Part shown: positions 52,177 to 63,850 of the stretch, one piece after another
Layout: each line of letters opens with the position of its first letter
Position numbering within the stretch: position 1 is the stretch's first letter
Source: Bradyrhizobium guangdongense
GTDB lineage: Bacteria; Pseudomonadota; Alphaproteobacteria; Rhizobiales; Xanthobacteraceae
DNA length: 64,000 nt
Reading direction: 5' to 3'
NCBI RefSeq assembly: GCF_004114975.1
Contig: NZ_CP030051.1
Span: 992,001-1,056,000, forward strand
Notes under the pieces: model-generated
The model's database searches: none
Seen by the model: the letters and a program-made list of their open reading frames with translations, nothing else
Told to the model about the DNA's origin: nothing
Made by a program: the position numbers and the translations under genes

Positions 52177-52252
52177 GCCCAGGTAGCTCAGTTGGTAGAG
52201 CATGCGACTGAAAATCGCAGTGTCGGTGGTTCGATTCCGCCCCTGGGCACCA
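52177..52252 (+). tRNA. tRNA-Phe (GAA)
   Basis: Cloverleaf on the plus strand: acceptor GCCCAGG/CCTGGGC, D arm TAGCTCAGTTGGTAGAGCA, anticodon loop CTGAAAA (anticodon GAA), T arm GGTGGTTCGATTCCGCC and encoded CCA at 52250-52252. An integrase gene starts 87 bp downstream, so its 3' end is the likely attachment site. A hairpin GGCTCTT-TT-AAGAGCC follows at 52254. Confidence 0.97.
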
Positions 52253-52338
52253 CGGCTCTTTTAAGAGCCTGATATCCAAAGCAAATCAGCAATTCCAACG
52301 GCTTACCCCTCCACTAGTGGTACAGAGAGGTGGTACAA

Positions 52339-53060
52339 ATGCCGTTGCTCATGTCGCGTCCTTGGAAGCATCCAAAAACCGGTATCTATCAGCTCCGGCG
52401 AGCGGTCCCAGAAGACTTGCGCGCGCTCGTTGGCAAGCGTGAGGAGAAGGTAAGTCTCCAAACCCGCGATCCCGCAGAAGCCAAACAGCGGTTCGCAAAA
52501 GCCCTGGCGGAGCTGGAGGTCCGCTGGGCGAACCTTCGCGCCGGTCCAAAGCCCCTGACCGAGCGCGAGGCGCACCATTTGGCTCTTGCCGAACATGATA
52601 GCTGGCTGCAGGCGTACAGTGACAACCGGAGCCAACAGACGAAATGGGACGTGAGACTCGGGGACTGGGTCTTTGGAGCTCGAGGAAGCTCCCCATTGGT
52701 CGAGCCAGGTTCTTTCCGATCGGACTCAAGCCAAGAGTGGCTCAAGATCCGCCTCATGGAGCACGACTGTCTTGAGACAGCGAACCGATATCTGGTTGCG
52801 CACGGTTTAAGTGCCGATTGGCAAAGCCGGCAGACGATGGCCAGAGCCATTGGCGCAGCAATACAGCGTGCATGCCTAGCTCTCGCAAAGCTTGCCAGAG
52901 GTGAAGGTCTTACGCAGTTTGCCTTCTCGCCTGCTGTCATGTTGGGCGGTGGACCGGCCGCTTCACTCGCGTCCCAGCGAACCACCTCGTTTCAGGAGCT
53001 TTTGGATGGCTGGGAGGCTGAACGCAGACCAGTAGCGAAAACCATTTATGAGTGGTCGCG
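52339..53060 (+). pseudogene. Tyrosine-type integrase, 5' part (split by IS21)
   Basis: N-terminal 240 codons of a phage-type integrase: MPLLMSRPWKHPKTGIYQLR, followed by RAVPEDLRALVGKREEKVSL and PAEAKQRFAKALAELE, the DUF6538-like arm-binding region, then the start of the core-binding domain (FQELLDGWEAERRPVAKTIY, EWSR). ATG 52339 follows GAGAGG. The frame is cut at 53060 by an IS21 element; as it stands it runs 36 codons into the element. The rest of the gene is at 57106-57949. Confidence 0.88.
53054..53060. repeat. Target-site duplication GGTCGCG, left copy
   Basis: GGTCGCG is directly before the IS21 terminus at 53061 and again directly after the other terminus at 57099-57105. A 7-bp duplication fits the 4-8 bp made by IS21 elements. 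Confidence 0.8.
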
Positions 53061-53189
53061 TGTAGCGCGGCAATCTGGGTGGGAAGTGCGCGGCAAACAG
53101 GATGGCGAGGCAGTGTCGCGGCCTGATGATGATTGCCGCGATGATTGTCGCGCGCAAGAGTTTTGTTGAACTCTGATTGTCGCGCAGCG

Positions 53190-55752
<2,563 letters not shown>

Positions 55753-56778
55753 TCATGCCGTCACTGCCTGCGCTGGGTTCCGATAATCCTCCTTCCGGGT
55801 GAGCATGGCCCAAATCGTCCGAGCCATCTTGTTCGCCAAGGCGATCGCCACAAGCATGCGCGGCTTCCTCGCCAGCATCTGCGCCAGCCAGGATCCGCTA
55901 GGGATCGACTTGCGCCCGAGCCAGTTCAGCCGCGACATCGCCCCAACGATGAGCAACTGGCGAATGTCCGCCTGTCCTTCCTTCGAAACGCGTCCGAGCC
56001 TTTCCTTTCCCCCTGAGGAATGTTGCCGTGGGACCAAGCCGAGCCAAGCCGCGAAGTCTCGGCCACGTCGAAAGGCCGCCATGTCGGGCGCGAAAGCCTC
56101 GATCGCGAGTGCGGTCAGCGGGCCGACCCCCGGCATTGTCTGCAGCCGCTGCGCCGTGACCGTCCGCGTCGCCAACTTCTTGAGCTGCTCTGCCTTGGCA
56201 TCGATCCGCTCCGTCTTGTAGGCGATCTGATCAATGAGACTCCGACATTCCTCGCGGACCAGTTCTGGTAGATCGCTGTTCGGATCTTCGAGGATTGCGT
56301 CAATGCGTTTAAGTTGTTCGATTCCTTGCGGGATGATATGGCCGAATTCGTAGAGAACAGAACGCAGCGCATTCACCAGATCGGTGCGCTGATGAACAAG
56401 GCGCTTCCGAGCCCGAAAGAGCACTGCCCTGGCCTGCTGTTCTTCCGATTTCGGCTCGACGAAGCGCATCTCGGGGCGCTGTGCCGCGATCACGATTGCT
56501 TCGGCATCAGCCGCGTCGTTCTTTTGGCGTTTCACAAAAGGCTTCACATATTGCGGAGCGATCAGTTTCACTTCATGGCCGAGCTTGACCATCTCCCGTG
56601 CCCAATAGTGGGCGCTGCCACAGGCTTCCATCACCACCACTGCCGATGGGTGGCCCGCCATGAACTTCCGAAACTGAAGCCGCGACAGTTTCTTTCGAAA
56701 TTTCAAGTGTCCCGCCATTGACGCCCCGTGGAGCTGAAACACATTCTTGGCTAGATCCACTCCGATCACCGTATCCAT
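55753..56778 (-). CDS. IS110-family transposase (nested inside IS21)
   Basis: Transposase of 341 aa, distinct from the one at 27352. N-terminal DEDD domain: MDTVIGVDLAKNVFQLHGAS, Glu in VVMEACGSAHYWA, KRQKNDAADAEAI. C-terminal part: LQTMPGVGPLTALAIEAFAP, DFAAWLGLVPRQHSSGGKER and ALANKMARTIWAML. ATG 56778 is chosen from family starts; the frame extends to 56814. It seems intact, so it may still be mobile. Confidence 0.95.
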   Translation of the reverse strand: MDTVIGVDLAKNVFQLHGASMAGHLKFRKKLSRLQFRKFMAGHPSAVVVMEACGSAHYWAREMVKLGHEVKLIAPQYVKPFVKRQKNDAADAEAIVIAAQRPEMRFVEPKSEEQQARAVLFRARKRLVHQRTDLVNALRSVLYEFGHIIPQGIEQLKRIDAILEDPNSDLPELVREECRSLIDQIAYKTERIDAKAEQLKKLATRTVTAQRLQTMPGVGPLTALAIEAFAPDMAAFRRGRDFAAWLGLVPRQHSSGGKERLGRVSKEGQADIRQLLIVGAMSRLNWLGRKSIPSGSWLAQMLARKPRMLVAIALANKMARTIWAMLTRKEDYRNPAQAVTA

Positions 56779-57098
56779 CAATTTGCCGTCCTCTTCGCTT
56801 CGGGGTTCAAACACTGCGTTCTTGGCACATTACGATGCCGTCTGGGGAGGGCGGCAACCATCCCATCTCATCTGGTGATCTGTGATGTGTCGGCCGGGCA
56901 AGCGAGTGATTCCTCTTGGCGGAAGAACCACTTGCATAACCCCGCCGGCCGCGATCACCAGTCGGCGCGGTCCTCCTCGGGATCGCGCCGACGCTGGGCC
57001 CGTAACTCCGGTCGGGCTACGCCCTCCCTACGTCACGGGCCCAGCGAAACTCTCTCACCTTGATTGACGCTGCCTTCCATCCTGATTGCCGCGCGACA
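56779..57098. other. IS110 end and right end of the IS21 element
   Basis: 320 bp without a gene. Part belongs to the IS110 element upstream region and the rest to the IS21 right terminus; the IS21 inverted repeat ends at 57098. A GGGCCCGTAACTCCGGTCGG ... GTCACGGGCCC dyad at about 56996-57043 could be an IS110 recognition structure. Confidence 0.4.
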
Positions 57099-57105
57099 GG
57101 TCGCG

Positions 57106-57949
57106 CGTGATCCGCGAGCTGGAGAGGTATCTCGGCCATACTGACGCCAACCGCTTGACGTCGGAGAACTTGGTCGATTGGAAGCGTGCGCTGGTTGCGG
57201 GCGGATTGCGACCCAAAACCATTCAAGGAGCCAAACTTTCGCCGGTGCGGGCGATCTTGCAATGGGGCGTTCAGAACAAGCTCCTTGGCTCCAATGCTGC
57301 CGAAGGCATTTCCCTCGAACTCAGAGCCAAACAAGGAGAGCGCAAGCGAAGCTTCACGGATGAAGAAGCGAAGACGATCTTGCGAGCTGCGCTCTTGGAG
57401 AAAGAACCAGTCAAGAGGTGGGTGCCATGGATCGGCGCCTACACCGGAGCGCGACTTTCCGAAATCTGCCAATTGCGCCGGGAGGACGTCCTAAAGATTG
57501 AAGATATCTGGTGCATAAAGTTCGTCCCGGAAGCTGGCTCGCTCAAGACGGCTGGATCGGAGCGCATCGTCCCTGCTCACCCGGCGCTGGTTGAGTGTGG
57601 CTTTCTCAAATTCGTCGCCGAAGTGAGATCCGGGCCTCTCTTCGCCGAACTCTCTCCAGACAAGTTTGGCAAGCGCGGTGGTAATGGGACCAAGATGATC
57701 GGGCGGTTCGTGCGTCAGCTTGGATTGAAAGACCCACGACTGTCTCCAAGCCATTCATGGCGCCACCGGATCAAGACACTCGGACGAAAACATGGACTTG
57801 CCCAAGATATATTGAATGCGATCACTGGCCACGGCTCGAAGTCGGTCGCCGACTCGTATGGCGAGTTTCCTGTGGAGGCGCTTTATCGAGAGCTTCGCAA
57901 GATTCCGGCTCTCAATTTGGGCGGCTTCGCGCAGGGAAAGGGGACTTAG
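57106..57949 (+). pseudogene. Tyrosine-type integrase, 3' part (catalytic domain)
   Basis: Continuation of the integrase split at 53060, in the correct frame: VIRELERYLGHTDANRLTSE in the core-binding domain, then the catalytic domain with Arg in TGARLSEICQLRRED, Lys near AGSLKTAGSERIV, H-x-x-R in SHSWRHRIK, His in ITGHGSKS and the Tyr nucleophile in VADSYGE. Joined to 52339-53060 it gives 521 codons. An open frame from 57086 gives a fragment that could still be translated but lacks the N-terminal domains. Confidence 0.88.
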
Positions 57950-58314: not shown

Positions 58315-60378
58315 GTGACCAATCTTCAGTTCAGCGTGAAGCCGCGTCTCCTAACTCTGCTGGGTGACCAGTTAATACGCGACGCCTCTATCGCCGTCTT
58401 TGAACTTGTCAAAAATGCCTATGATGCTGACGCGACTGAATGTCACGTAACGCTAGAACATCTTAATGCTCCAAGTGATGGCTGCGTTGTTGTTCAGGAC
58501 AACGGCGTAGGAATGGATGCAAAGACCATACGTGAAGCCTGGATGGTCATCGCAACAGACTTTCGCAAGGTCCAGAGAGACGAAAACAGACGAACGCGGA
58601 AGTTTCATCGTCTTCCGTTAGGCGAAAAAGGACTCGGTCGACTGTCGGTGCACAAGCTCGGGCACCGCGTCCGGCTCGTGACAAAAGTAAAAGGCGGCCC
58701 CGAGATCGTCATCGAGATAGATTGGGACGAACTTGAGGAGGCGAGTAGTTTTGACCGCGCAGCCGCAGTCATGACAGAAAGAGAGCCGCGTATCTTTACC
58801 GGCAGCAAAACCGGTACGCGCCTCGAAGTGAGCCGACTTAGAGAGGAGTGGTCACGCGGCGAGCTGCGACGGCTTCATCGCTCAGTGAACAGCCTATGCT
58901 CGCCTTTCGAAGGGCCCACAGATTTCAAGGTAAGTCTGTCTGCTCCAACCAACGAGCGTTGGCTCGATGGAATGTTTGCCGCGAGCGACGCGAGAAAATG
59001 TGCGCTGTACCACGTCCGCGGCACTTTCGAAGGCTCCAAAATGCAGTTTGATTACCGGTTCAGACCCCCGCCGGGGTTTGAAAAGCAGCTCACTGCGCAG
59101 CATCGCAAGGCAACGCACCCCCTTGAGCGCAGGGCCGGAAGGAAGACGGAGCTACTTGATCTTTCGAAGTACGAGATCGGTAAAGTACGGTTCGAGTTTC
59201 TTCTTTATGATAGAGCGCCAGGAATTCTCCGATCTGTGACTGACGATGTGACCGGACTCAAAGACTTCCTTGATGAAAATGGCGGAATAAGAATCTATCG
59301 AGATGGCATACGCGTCTTTGATTTTGGAGAGCCTGGAAATGATTGGCTCAATCTTGATATTCGTCGGGTGAATACTCCGACCGCGAGAACGAGCAACAAT
59401 CAGATTCTTGGAACTTTGCAGCTGAGTGCCGAGTCGAGTGCAGACCTGCGCGAAAAGACAAACCGTGAGGGGTTTATTGAGAACCCTGCATTTTCAGATT
59501 TTCGGGAAGCGGTAATAGGCGTTCTTACCCAGGTCGAAGCCGAGAAGACCAAAGAACAAAGAAAGCTTCGTGAAGCTCTGGGGCGCGGCACCGGCAAAAG
59601 GGTATTTCAGAAACTGGGCGACCTTCGAGATATTCTGGAACGCAAGGGTGTTCTCAAGGAGGTTGAGCCACGATTGAAGGCGGTTGAGAAGGAGATGGAA
59701 ACCTACCGTGACCAGTTATTGCACGCCGCGGTACCCGGGCTAAGCGTTGGGATCATGCTCCACGGCGCCGAGAAGATTCTGGAAGAACTAAGAGCGGCGG
59801 CGGCAAAAGGGACAGACGTTGCAAAAATAAAGGGCCTGGTCGAGAGCCTTTATCGTGCAATGCGCCCCGTAACAAACCTTCTGAAGAACCCGGGCCTCGG
59901 GAAAACCGGCGCCAAATCCCTCATCAAGGAAGCGATATTCAGCACCGAGTTGCGGCTGAAGAGGCATGGCATCAAATTGATCGACGGCCTCGATGAGGGT
60001 GACGAAGATTTCCCGGTCAAAGGCTCCAAACAGATGCTGGTTGCATCAATAACGAACCTAGTTGACAACAGCATCCACTGGTTGGAACACAAGAACCCAA
60101 AAACGAAGCTCCTGTATATTGGAACGACGCGTGACCCCGAAGGAGGTCCTGCAATAGTTGTGGGCGATAACGGCCCGGGATTTGGCAAGGATGATCCGGA
60201 GGACCTTCTGCAGCCGTTCTTCACGCGCCGCAGCGGTGGAATGGGCCTGGGCCTCTACATTACAGATGAGGTCATGCGGGTGAACAAGGGGCAGGTCGTA
60301 TTCCCCGGGAAAGGTGACGTTGACTTGCCAAATGGTATTGACGGCGCCGTCGTTGCTCTGCAATTTCTAGATGCATGA
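58315..60378 (+). CDS. Double-GHKL ATPase: MORC/Hsp90-like domain plus histidine-kinase-like ATPase
   Basis: Protein of 687 aa with two GHKL modules. The N-terminal one is MORC/Hsp90/MutL-like: E30 and N34 in ELVKNAYDADA, D62-N-G-V-G-M67 and lid G103EKGLGRLS111. A transducer-like middle (about 180-400) and helical region (about 420-560) follow; H483 in GIMLHGAEKI sits where a phospho-accepting or structural His occurs in related kinases. The C-terminal module is HATPase_c: N581LVDN585, D618NGPGF623, G642MGLGLY648. No membrane segment. It starts with GTG; AAGGA is upstream. It overlaps the receiver gene by 4 bp. Codon use is AT-richer than the core. Confidence 0.85.
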   Translation: MTNLQFSVKPRLLTLLGDQLIRDASIAVFELVKNAYDADATECHVTLEHLNAPSDGCVVVQDNGVGMDAKTIREAWMVIATDFRKVQRDENRRTRKFHRLPLGEKGLGRLSVHKLGHRVRLVTKVKGGPEIVIEIDWDELEEASSFDRAAAVMTEREPRIFTGSKTGTRLEVSRLREEWSRGELRRLHRSVNSLCSPFEGPTDFKVSLSAPTNERWLDGMFAASDARKCALYHVRGTFEGSKMQFDYRFRPPPGFEKQLTAQHRKATHPLERRAGRKTELLDLSKYEIGKVRFEFLLYDRAPGILRSVTDDVTGLKDFLDENGGIRIYRDGIRVFDFGEPGNDWLNLDIRRVNTPTARTSNNQILGTLQLSAESSADLREKTNREGFIENPAFSDFREAVIGVLTQVEAEKTKEQRKLREALGRGTGKRVFQKLGDLRDILERKGVLKEVEPRLKAVEKEMETYRDQLLHAAVPGLSVGIMLHGAEKILEELRAAAAKGTDVAKIKGLVESLYRAMRPVTNLLKNPGLGKTGAKSLIKEAIFSTELRLKRHGIKLIDGLDEGDEDFPVKGSKQMLVASITNLVDNSIHWLEHKNPKTKLLYIGTTRDPEGGPAIVVGDNGPGFGKDDPEDLLQPFFTRRSGGMGLGLYITDEVMRVNKGQVVFPGKGDVDLPNGIDGAVVALQFLDA

Positions 60379-60968
60379 TTTCACGGCTCTCCAATCCTTC
60401 GATCTGCGTCATTGATGACGAAGAGGACGACTACAGGCCTATCCTTGATGCGCTGAACGGGCTTTACGTGAGTTGCGTGCATCTGAAGGGAGACGCAGCC
60501 GGCCTCCCTTCCAAGCCGTTTCAGAGTTTGCGCCTGGTTTTTCTGGATCTGCATCTGACTGGCTCTGTTGGCCGAACTGGAGCGTCTCATACCGCAAATG
60601 TTTTCAGAAAGGTCGTCTCGTCGGAAACTGCACCGATCGTGGTGGTTATCTGGAGCAAGTTCGCGAGAGATACGCTGGGACAGGAAGACGTCCCACCTGA
60701 GGATCAGGAGACAGAAGCTGACCTGTTCAAGCGGTTTCTTATCGAGGCTGAACCTGCGTACAAGGAACGCTTGATCTTCATAGAAATGAAGAAGCCGAAG
60801 CAGAATGCGCGGCCAGGGCGGCGCGATTGGACGCAGCGTCTAAAGACACAGATCAAGAAGACGTTAAAGGGTCAGTCGGCTGTAGATGCGCTTTGGGCAT
60901 GGGAGCTTCTGTGTCGTTCGGCCTGCAATATTGACCCCCTAAGCCGGGGGATCGGCGTCCAAAATTGA
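60375..60968 (+). CDS. Receiver-domain (response regulator-like) protein, C-terminally truncated by IS21
   Basis: Partner of the double-GHKL protein, coupled by ATGA. The N terminus is a CheY-like receiver: acidic pocket D14-D15 in CVIDDEED, phospho-acceptor D58 in LVFLDLHLTG, and a VVIWSK strand near residues 91-95 in the Thr/Lys switch region. The insert between the receiver core and the later ERLIFIEMKKP part is longer than in CheY. Native sequence ends at residue 179; codons from 60912 on (CRSACNIDPL to the stop) come from the IS21 terminus. The original C-terminal output part is unknown. Confidence 0.8.
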   Translation: MISRLSNPSICVIDDEEDDYRPILDALNGLYVSCVHLKGDAAGLPSKPFQSLRLVFLDLHLTGSVGRTGASHTANVFRKVVSSETAPIVVVIWSKFARDTLGQEDVPPEDQETEADLFKRFLIEAEPAYKERLIFIEMKKPKQNARPGRRDWTQRLKTQIKKTLKGQSAVDALWAWELLCRSACNIDPLSRGIGVQN

Positions 60969-61025
60969 CCCCCTACAGATTGGTCTGTTGCGTTGCCTGC
61001 TTTGGAACGAAGCAGGTGGTGGGGG

Positions 61026-62525
61026 ATGCTGATCGTGGAGACGATTGCCCGGATCCGGCGCGAGCACTTCATCAAGGGCAAGACGATCAAGGAGATCGCC
61101 CGTGACCTGAAGGTATCGCGGAACACGGTTCGGAAGGTGCTGAGGTCGGGAGAGACCTCCTTCGAGTACGAGCGGCAGGTGCAGCCGCGGCCAAAGCTGG
61201 GACGATGGGCAGCAGAGCTTGATGGATTGCTGGCGGCGAACGCGGCTAAATCGGCTCGCGAACAGCTGACGTTGATCCGGATCTTCGAAGAGCTGCGCGG
61301 CCGCGGCTATGACGGCGGTTACGATGCGGTGCGGCGTTACGCCAGGCGGTGGAGCAAAGAACGCGGGCAATCGACCGCGGCCGCTTATGTCCCGCTGAGC
61401 TTTGCCCCAGGCGAAGCCTACCAGTTCGACTGGAGCCACGAGGTGGTCTTGCTGAGCGGCACCACGGTGATGGTGAAGGCCGCCCATGTCCGGCTCTGTC
61501 ACAGCCGCATGCTGTTCGTGCGGGCCTATCCGCGGGAGACGCAGGAGATGGTGTTCGACGCCCACGACCGGGCGTTCGCCCTGTTCAAAGGCACCTGCAC
61601 CCGCGGCATCTATGACAACATGAAGACCGCCGTGGAGACGATCTTCGTCGGTAAAGGGCGTCTCTACAATCGCCGCTTCCTGCAGATGTGCAGTCACTAT
61701 CTGGTCGATCCGGTCGCCTGCACGCCAGCGTCGGGCTGGGAGAAGGGGCAGGTCGAGAACCAGGTCGGGCTGGTGCGAGAACGCTTCTTCACGCCGCGGC
61801 TGCGGTTCAAAAACCTCGACGAGTTAAACGCCTGGCTGCTCGACAAATGCATCGCCTACGCCAAGGCTCATCGCCATCCGGAGCTGGTCGATCAGACGAT
61901 CTGGGACGTGTTCGAAGCCGAACGCCCCAATCTCGTTCCCTATGCCGGCCGCTTCGACGGCTTCCATGCGGTGACGGCATCGGTCTCGAAGACCTGCCTG
62001 GTGCGCTTCGACAACAACAAGTACTCGGTCGCAGCCAGCGCAGTCGGACGCCCCGTCGAGGTTCAAGCCTATGCCGATCGCATCGTGATCCGTCAGGATG
62101 GACGCATCGTTGCCGAGCACCCGCGATCCTTTGGCCGCGGCGATACCGTCTACGACCCCTGGCATTATGTGCCGGTGCTCGCCCGCAAACCCGGCGCCTT
62201 GCGTAATGGTGCTCCCTTCAAAGACTGGGTGCTGCCGGCCGCGATCGAGCGGATCCGGCGCAAGCTTGCCAGCACCGACGATGGCAATCGGCAGATGGTC
62301 GACATCCTCAACGCGGTGCTGACTGACGGTCTGCCCGCGGTGGAAGCGGCCTGTGCCGAAGCGCTCAGTCACAGCGTCCATTCCGCCGATGTCGTGCTCA
62401 ATATCCTGGCCCGTCAACGCGAACCCGCCCCACCGGCCAACATCATGACGCCGGCCGCACTGACGCTCCGTCATGCACCGATCGCCGATTGTGCTCGCTA
62501 CGACAACCTCCGGAGGACCATCTGA
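61026..62525 (+). CDS. istA: IS21-family transposase IstA
   Basis: DDE transposase of 499 aa. N-terminal [26 protein letters not shown] core: Asp in [12 protein letters not shown], Asp in [13 protein letters not shown] and Glu in [12 protein letters not shown]. The ATG at 61026 follows GGGGG. It differs strongly from the istA at 53999, so the two IS21 elements belong to different subgroups. The stop overlaps istB by 1 bp. Confidence 0.96.
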
Positions 62526-63388
62526 TGGAACGAACCCAAATCTTCGACCTCATGGGCGAACTCAAGCTCTACGGCATGAAGGCTGCCTTCGACGAGATCA
62601 TGGCGACTGCCGTCAAGCGCCAGCACGAACCTCAGCGCATTGTCGGCGACCTGCTCAACGCCGAGATCAACGAGAAGCAAGCCAGGTCGATCAAATACCA
62701 GCTCACCATTGCCAAGCTGCCGCTCGCCAAGGACATCGCCGACTTCCAGTTCGACGGCACGCCGATCAATCAGACTCTCGTCAATGATGTCGCTGGCGGC
62801 GGCTTCATCGCCCAACAACGCAACGTCGTGCTGGTTGGCGGCACTGGCACAGGCAAAACCCACCTGGCCATCGCCATCGCCAGAAGCTGCATCCGATCCG
62901 GTGCCCGCGGCCGCTTCTTCAACGTAGTCGACCTCGTCAATCGCCTCGAGACCGAGACCCGCAACGGACGGCAAGGACGGCTCGCCGAGCATCTGACCCG
63001 GATGGACTTCATCGTGCTGGATGAACTCGGCTATTTGCCCTTCGCGCAGTCCGGTGGCCAGCTTCTCTTCCACCTCGTCAGCCGGCTCTATGAGCGCGCC
63101 TCCGTCATCGTGACCACCAATCTCGCCTTCGGCGAATGGCCGAGCGTGTTCGGCGACGCCAAAATGACCACCGCGCTGCTCGACCGATTGACCCATCACT
63201 GCGACATCGTCGAGACCGGCAACGATAGCTGGCGGTTCAAGAGTCGAGACGACGATCACGCCACCCGCGCTCGTCTCGCCTCCGCTATCCCGGCCAGCTC
63301 CGACGAGACGAGCGCTACCAGCAAAACCCGCCGCACGAAGGGGTCAAAATTGGACGCCGATGAGGGGTCAAATTTGCAGGCCGATTGA
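62525..63388 (+). CDS. istB: IS21 helper ATPase IstB
   Basis: AAA+ ATPase of 287 aa. Walker [16 protein letters not shown], Walker [14 protein letters not shown], and sensor [16 protein letters not shown] are intact. The last codons ([14 protein letters not shown]) run into the terminal inverted repeat of the element. The start is the ATG in TGATG that ends istA. Confidence 0.96.
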
Positions 63389-63390
63389 CA

Positions 63391-63589
63391 GATCGTCGGT
63401 GCGACCGCCCTGCTGAGGCATATTCGAAAGGGCCGTCATAAGCCCACACCATGGCTCGCTTCGCTGCTGCAGCGAAAGCCGCCAAAGTTGGTCGCAGTGG
63501 CCTTGGCCAACAAGTTTGCCCGCATCGCTTGGCGCTTGATGATATCGGGCGGCGTGTACAAGCAGCCGGTAGCCGTCATGCCGACTTGA
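63391..63589 (+). pseudogene. IS110-family transposase, C-terminal remnant
   Basis: Codons 63392-63589 read IVGATALLRHIRKGRHKPTP, WLASLLQRKPPKLVAVALAN, KFARIAWRLMISGGVYKQP and end at TGA. This matches the end of IS110 transposases (compare LLIVGAMSRLNW ... LVAIALANKMARTIW in the copy at 55753). The 5' part is missing, replaced by the IS21 element. Confidence 0.8.
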
Positions 63590-63850
63590 TCTGAAATCGG
63601 CCCGCGAGCAGATTGCTCGGCGGATTTCCCACGAACTTGCAGGACGCAGTAGATGGAAGGACCGATCGGTCGATACGCGCGAGCTTCCGAAGATTACACT
63701 GGCAACAAGAATGTCGCCCATGTGCTTGGAGCGCGCGTAGCGAACACCATCTCGGCCAGCGGGCTTTGTCCGCGCAAACAGGCCGGACATCTGATAGCAA
63801 GCGATCTGGCCAAAAGTCTGCTACAATCCTGACAAGTGGGGGCCGTCCAC
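63590..63850. other. Likely 3' flank of the IS110 remnant
   Basis: 260 bp with no convincing gene. It probably includes the downstream end of the degenerate IS110 element, ending just before the SRAP coding region near 63836-63850. Confidence 0.4.

Follow-up and report, generated by a model that had tools for sequence, protein, structure and literature searches.

A decaying copy of a predicted mobile two-component module with a MORC-like ATPase fused to a histidine kinase in Bradyrhizobium guangdongense

The DNA analyzed here, which we term the window, is a stretch of 64,000 nt of the forward strand of the Bradyrhizobium guangdongense genome (GCF_004114975.1, NZ_CP030051.1:992,001-1,056,000; coordinates prefixed C1 are genome-scale). 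It includes a genomic island whose left edge is a tRNA-Phe (GAA) gene (52177..52252, + strand; ARAGORN). An integrase had been reported at this site, and it is indeed present but split, as seen from the sequence, by insertion elements. Its N-terminal part (52330..53169, +) has a DUF6538 domain (PF20172, E 4e-17), and its C-terminal catalytic part (57086..57949, +) matches PF00589 with an E-value of 1.7e-5, slightly below the curated cut-off; both match adjacent stretches of the same Pseudochrobactrum plasmids, where they are annotated as a DUF6538 protein. Within the integrase gene lie an element with two ORFs (53190..55615, -), which we take to be of the IS21 type (IstA/IstB), and a further ORF (55753..56814, -), presumably that of an IS110-like transposase. 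The right att site of the island was not found up to C1:1080000.

The first gene of interest on this island (58315..60378, +) has an intact frame and codes for a 687 aa histidine kinase with an N-terminal MORC-like ATPase module (PF13589 and PF02518); its listed homologues show 66-71% identity over 97-100% of its length. Profile matches and the predicted structure concur in placing two separate ATPase folds in this one protein, as was originally proposed: a MORC/MutL/Hsp90-type module (aa 7-415) is separate from the histidine-kinase module (aa 463-687). The former (58333..59559, +) is a MORC3/Hsp90/MutL-like GHKL ATPase followed by an S5-like transducer, an arrangement also seen in MORC and paraMORC proteins. 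The predicted model further has a helical hairpin (aa 447-523; 59653..59883, +), with a local pLDDT of about 61-73, whose first helix carries H483 (59761-59763), a residue invariant in 50 of 50 aligned rows. The histidine-kinase-type ATPase domain at the C-terminus (aa 575-687; 60037..60375, +; PF02518 over aa 575-663) has 4kp4 and other kinases as its structure matches. Matches of general histidine-kinase models to the C-terminal half stay under the respective cut-offs. No HisKA-type dimerization/phosphoacceptor domain (PF00512 or kin) matched the kinase up to an E-value of 1, despite the H483 hairpin in the model. Pfam matches and hydropathy point to the union of HATPase_c_3 (N-terminal) and HATPase_c (C-terminal) in a single soluble protein, in agreement with the cytoplasmic location suggested for it earlier.

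The second gene overlaps the first by 4 nt and specifies a receiver domain of 179 native codons (60375..60911, +; delimited by alignments). The acidic pocket and phosphoacceptor attributed to it in the initial annotation are in place (D14/D15 and D58), along with W93-S94 and K140; the (beta-alpha)5 fold, acidic pair, Asp, Thr/Ser and Lys characteristic of REC domains are all present. The description of the locus as a two-gene cassette holds for the intact kinase frame and the coupled receiver gene, but it had missed the truncation of the latter: an insertion element cuts the receiver after 179 of about 447 codons, followed by read-through codons inside the element up to a stop (60912..60968, +; from the element boundary). 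The receivers of intact relatives span 428-465 aa. A profile built from them has a single match in the whole genome, covering its positions 1-179 of 452 (limits E 1e-10 and E 1), with no remnant of the lost output domain elsewhere in the genome at the limit of E 1; likewise, tblastn with 19 intact receivers against 37 kb around the locus recovers the N-terminal part and, elsewhere, just matches with E-values of at least 0.038. Because the output domain is missing from the point where the IS21-like element starts, the complete relay once envisaged for this locus is not supported: the window copy is probably unable to signal onward, with the relay ending at a bare receiver.

The truncating element (60912..63390, +; defined by its terminal inverted repeats and genome copies), which we assume to belong to the IS21 family, is 2,479 bp long and has terminal inverted repeats of 27 nt with 85% complementarity. 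There are 7 full-length, 100% identical copies with the same ends in the genome (itself counted), and 3 more at 96-98%. The identity of these copies suggests that transposition was recent, which would fit the intact frame of the kinase. The element is abutted by a fragment (63391..63590, +) resembling the C-terminus of what is presumably an IS110-type transposase. Since no target duplication was seen at the ends of the element and its right flank is transposase-like, a deletion probably accompanied or came after the insertion at the receiver. We read the locus as the decaying remains of a cytoplasmic two-component module of mobile nature; in itself this copy matters less, but it illustrates how insertion elements dismantle such a module at a stage when the frame of the kinase is still intact.

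The intact relatives display the conserved pairing of the two genes that had been proposed as a check: the receiver gene is directly downstream of the kinase gene in 24/24 intact loci, which amount to 21 distinct ones upon merging the near-identical L014/L015 and L017/L019/L023. At all 21 non-window kinase loci examined it lies directly 3', with spacings from a 20 nt overlap to a 3 nt gap, and at 11 of these the 4-nt overlap is identical to that in the window. Conversely, at each of the two loci recovered with the profile of the receiver, the kinase gene immediately precedes it, and kinase and receiver are both present in one more relative (G1097). These counts exclude the partial or weak L011 and L024-L026, the duplicate L031 (of L030) and the plasmid hits H2 and H6. 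L011 is an unused weak fragment, one of 3 loci from a single-protein scan of genome contigs, and L024-L026 are weak viral loci with 22-25% identity that reach residue 408; plasmid hits from H8 downward, at 22-32% identity, were used, where fetched, purely as wider kin.

The family is sparsely distributed and found on mobile DNA. With the B. guangdongense genome counted in each case, the kinase occurs in 2/397 genomes of the order and 3/398 of the phylum, the receiver profile in 3/385 genomes of the class, and a family-level survey yielded 3/100 genomes, one of them with a partial match only. On plasmids there are 44 records at a limit of E 1e-20, a number that includes remote kin, and 29 of them are predicted to be conjugative; viral contigs contribute 14 loci, with coverage of the full kinase in 11. 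At L016 the pair sits in a P2-like prophage, flanked by the portal gene and gpA, a site that corresponds to the anti-phage hotspot described for P2, occupied in P2 itself by old and tin (PMC9122126); the terms histidine kinase, GHKL and receiver are absent from the text of that study. The pair at L014 is surrounded by gpA-like, repressor and integrase genes of phage type, and the G965 locus by phage genes including P2 GpU and GPD. With regard to E. coli as a host of these prophage versions, the L014 and L016 pairs had no DNA match in 20,395 records.

Such a distribution bears on the possibility that the pair is an ordinary two-component regulator of host genes, present on the island by chance. 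This reading draws on the sub-threshold matches of the C-terminal half to general histidine-kinase models and on a precedent from Marinomonas, where a different kinase/regulator pair confers phage resistance by controlling CRISPR-Cas (PMC8523701), making regulation of host defense genes conceivable. However, a very sparse family borne on plasmids and viral contigs is hardly what it predicts; moreover, the scanned receivers have no DNA-binding domain over cut-off (the best match of this type being one sub-threshold TetR-C, E 0.04), and the kinase has no known input domain except the ATPase. We accordingly regard it as highly improbable.

The genomic neighborhoods of the relatives offer a functional clue. 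A gene for a C5-methyltransferase and/or Vsr is found near the pair at 19/21 distinct loci by annotation, tblastn and Pfam; the match is partial at L020, and at L032 the genes are about 6 kb off, inside a run of restriction genes. None was found near the pair at L016 and L049. In the five other whole genomes checked, which have 1-3 C5-methyltransferases each, 4/5 have one within about 150 bp of the pair; the chance of at least 4/5 falling within 5 kb under random placement is about 4e-9, a value that ignores the clustering of mobile genes. The accompanying restriction enzymes vary by copy (AspBHI/Mrr, MvaI/BcnI and EcoRII-type), and therefore the pair and the methylation genes represent the more constant part. 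The defense-like company foreseen for the pair is thus seen in its relatives, in the form of C5-methyltransferases, Vsr, restriction enzymes, prophage sites and plasmids; that most of the intact relatives examined adjoin DNA-methylation genes, often on mobile DNA, points to a role in defense against foreign DNA. The window copy is an exception: within 37 kb around it (C1:1043001-1080000) no C5-methyltransferase or Vsr match is present, and the only ones reported from this genome are at C1:462-464 kb, about 0.6 Mb away, beside another pair discussed below.

One alternative takes the restriction genes to be mere island company and the pair to be a stand-alone abortive infection system, in which the ATPase clamp would sense a phage product, phosphate would pass to D58 and the C-terminal domain of the receiver would be toxic. 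The prophage locus without a detected methyltransferase or Vsr gene (L016) and the lack of a fixed restriction enzyme across relatives would be consistent with this, as would the size and conservation of that C-terminal domain. Yet, the recurrence of C5-methyltransferase/Vsr genes at 19/21 distinct loci, within about 150 bp in four whole genomes, speaks against it, and the scanned receivers match no family over cut-off; we hold this alternative to be unlikely.

The C-terminal output domain of the intact receivers comprises about 280 aa (residues 165-447 in the homologue at L012:3570-4913) and has invariant C343, D344, R424 and R441 in an alignment of 67 rows, in which the phosphoacceptor Asp and the Lys of the receiver domain are invariant too. 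The scanned receivers of this lineage had no family match over cut-off. A Foldseek search with the whole receiver model ranks receiver domains and PorX at the top (TM-score about 0.2 of the query), with nothing firm past residue 164; the top hits of the same model in a viral structure library are mainly receiver-like, and the best match of the intact-receiver sequence profile among solved structures is a response regulator at E 0.25. Whole-protein comparison failed to establish an output domain common to the receiver families. When the C-terminal profile was compared with five whole receivers of the wider kin, L040 alone rose (probability 18%), whereas L039 was outscored within its own set of 40 shuffles and L041 barely exceeded the best of its shuffles. 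Hand-chosen C-terminal segments of four such receivers, cut around the motif of interest, gave jointly a probability of 66% and a score of 38.1 over 34 columns, versus 22.1 for the best of 60 column shuffles; taken singly, the same motif-centered segments gave 43% for L040 and under 3% for the remaining three. As the segments were cut around the motif and the tests are mixed, the recurrence of a PACDL ... LR ... RxG-like output motif in these otherwise unlike receivers is a hint only.

The earlier impression that no described system matches this locus has to be revised, for the architecture was published in outline in 2021. Kinases of the HEF_HK family (PF19191), mostly with an N-terminal HATPase_c_3, pair with Response_reg_2 receivers (PF19192) at a linkage of 91.6% and adjoin C5-methyltransferases and Vsr genes or restriction-modification systems, and their descent from paraMORC ATPases has been proposed (Bellieny-Rabelo et al., 2021; PMC8011034). 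The likeness comprises the HATPase_c_3 and kinase combination, the neighboring receiver gene, the lack of a membrane segment and the C5-methyltransferase/Vsr neighbors; the window lineage differs in the absence of any report by these Pfam models, in a Gly after the conserved His and in lengths of about 690 and 450 aa. A true HEF_HK/Response_reg_2 pair is encoded elsewhere in the same genome (C1:457-464 kb; HEF_HK 33.5-35.3 bits, Response_reg_2 75-78 bits), with methyltransferase and Vsr genes after it; in its kinase, the ATPase part at the N-terminus is in a different frame. A direct scan of the window pair with a limit of E 1 reported neither PF19191 nor PF19192 on it, and the same holds for genome searches, which went to E 10 and start with a loose first look. 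The genome search with PF19191 reported three places, none in the window, with C1:459916 alone over cut-off, and that with PF19192 a single place, C1:460602; the receiver gene adjacent to the window kinase belongs to a family other than Response_reg_2.

The kinases can nonetheless be aligned: hhalign joins the window family to four HEF_HK-type kinases (L039-L042) across 628 columns with a probability of 100%, while the receivers of the two sets align only weakly. In the three of these kinases that were scanned, the PF19191 model is over cut-off (L039), sub-threshold (L040) and not found (L041), indicating that the wider kin is itself mixed. In a tree of 54 kinases the clade of the window (34 rows, 33 of them different) stands apart with support of 100/99, the very long outgroup branches leaving the root unsure. 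The residue after the conserved His is Gly in 34/34 rows of this clade and Glu in 16/16 of the sister clade, a difference amounting to one change on the tree; accordingly, the His followed by Glu/Asp that marks HEF_HK is not seen in the window kinase. The restriction-modification association that likewise marks HEF_HK is seen in 19/21 distinct intact relatives and not in the window copy. On these comparisons the window pair is a broken copy from a separate, unnamed lineage.

In many histidine kinases the acidic residue following the His acts as a base, and its loss here places phosphotransfer by H483 in this clade in doubt; its absence may signify weak or no kinase activity. In one alternative the C-terminal module of the clade would no longer be a kinase, and the protein would be a structural DNA machine with two ATPases on which the receiver docks without phosphate flow. 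The uniform Gly within the clade against the uniform Glu outside it accords with such a view. Nevertheless, the clade retains H483 and the key residues of the N, G1 and G2 motifs without variation, and the receiver likewise its Asp and Lys; such conservation would be difficult to account for if no phosphate chemistry took place, and E486, at +3 from H483 and invariant in 20 sequences, could serve as a substitute base; this view is therefore distinctly unlikely in our estimation.

Taken together, we consider it fairly probable that the intact module is a phosphorelay that senses DNA and is linked to restriction loci of the C5-methylation type, and that the window holds a decaying copy of it. 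Counting against this are the loci without C5-methyltransferase or Vsr genes nearby, the window copy among them, the missing acidic residue after H483, the merely partial PADLOC matches and an output domain that resembled no known fold in the searches made. In its intact form a MORC/MutL-like ATP clamp is joined to a histidine kinase, and the downstream partner is a receiver with a C-terminal output domain. By analogy with the MORC/MutL fold, ATP binding would shut the clamp formed by the N-terminal dimer around DNA or around a complex bound to it, and closure would move the long H483 helix against the C-terminal ATPase. The conserved residues suggest that phosphate would then pass to H483 and on to D58 of the receiver, which would free the output domain; the gene neighborhood, in turn, suggests that the latter would act with or on the adjacent C5-methyltransferase/Vsr restriction locus against foreign DNA. 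If intact members work in this manner, a histidine kinase would have a DNA clamp of the MORC/MutL type for its sensor; a phosphorelay would thus be coupled to epigenetic DNA marks, and a way in which restriction loci on mobile DNA may be switched would come into view. More speculatively, and with a low likelihood, this MORC-gated phosphorelay lineage might have a clamp that senses how DNA is methylated or in what state its ends are, an output domain of ~280 aa, with invariant Cys-Asp, Arg and Gly positions, that is a new effector or restriction switch, unusual phosphate chemistry in the clade of the window, given the loss of the acidic base that normally adjoins the His, and an effector type that serves several receiver families. 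The intact relatives, the clade difference next to the His and the possible shared output motif make the idea testable now.

Comparison with other known systems delimits this proposed phosphorelay further. Detocs is a phage-defense relay that likewise couples a kinase and a receiver, with TPR sensing and a PNP-type enzyme as output. The window kinase lacks TPRs, on which ground membership in Detocs was rejected, as it had been at the outset; no PNP gene occurs among the flanking genes scanned, which cover part of the flanks. In the DefensePredictor study of 2026, the domains that a figure legend gives for predicted, untested systems include HATPase and REC; TPR and purine phosphorylase are named too, and the system may be Detocs-like (PMC13092281). 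The paraMORC families 1-5 and prokaryotic MORCs share the N-terminal GHKL and S5 module and a restriction-modification neighborhood with Vsr and cytosine methylases, but the accessible text describes no histidine-kinase half or receiver partner, the word 'receiver' occurring 0 times in it (Iyer et al., 2008; PMC2292703). The Shedu-like VcSduA/paraMORC3, for which phage defense is proven, has a comparable GHKL ATPase N-terminus and clamp-like middle domain; it differs in being a single protein with a C-terminal nuclease where the window protein has its kinase (PMC12137116). The BbrUII/HgiDII restriction enzyme model (NF050001) matches aa 6-191 of the kinase at E 4e-25, but with 88 of 550 bits, far under its cut-off, and the window protein has no nuclease match. 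A named anti-phage system was also sought with PADLOC 2.0.0, which returned partial matches with no model matched over most of its length. The literature searches listed neither biochemical work nor phage assays on these kinases. Beyond the right end of the window, at ~3-20 kb from it (C1:1059-1076 kb), lies a cluster of conflict genes that adds to the defense-like surroundings expected of the locus and codes for a Pycsar-type TIR protein, two other TIR proteins, an AAA protein (weak MoxR match), a CHAT-TPR protein and a TIR-nSTAND1-WD40 protein.

The IS21-like element that cuts the receiver gene short (window 60912-63390) is present in this genome as seven full-length copies, the window copy counted, which are 100% identical, along with three further copies at 96-98%; the identity of the former is a sign of its recent transposition. 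One IS21-like and one IS110-like element also interrupt the island integrase gene (window 52330-57949). To the right of the window lies a cluster of conflict-type genes (contig positions 1059380-1076077; L037:16380-17636 and L038:1514-14077), which includes a CAP12/Pycsar TIR effector and two more TIR genes, as well as an AAA gene that matches MoxR weakly, a CHAT-TPR gene and a gene for a 1470 aa TIR-nSTAND1-WD40 protein.

Elsewhere on this contig, at 457-464 kb (L039:7029-14478), we found a true HEF_HK/Response_reg_2 kinase-receiver pair (Bellieny-Rabelo et al., 2021), accompanied by a C5-methyltransferase and Vsr. The N-terminal ATPase part of its kinase is in a different frame from the rest, reflecting either a frameshift or a sequence error. 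Another pair, comprising an ATP-binding protein and a response regulator, occurs on a Burkholderia aenigmatica plasmid (L043:8001-10756), where it adjoins genes for a type I methyltransferase subunit and an MBL-fold protein, with an anti-phage-associated HerA gene ~8 kb upstream. A CD(L/V) motif recurs in the C-terminal parts of the otherwise unlike receivers of these two loci and of three others of the wider kin (L040, L041 and L042), followed in several of the five by LR...RxG-like residues.

Finally, the P2-like Escherichia phage PhiR44_1 (L035:10001-11959) carries a ParaMORC3-annotated gene and Dcm flanked by the portal gene and gpA, the same type of site as that of the intact relative of the window pair in a P2-like prophage (L016).
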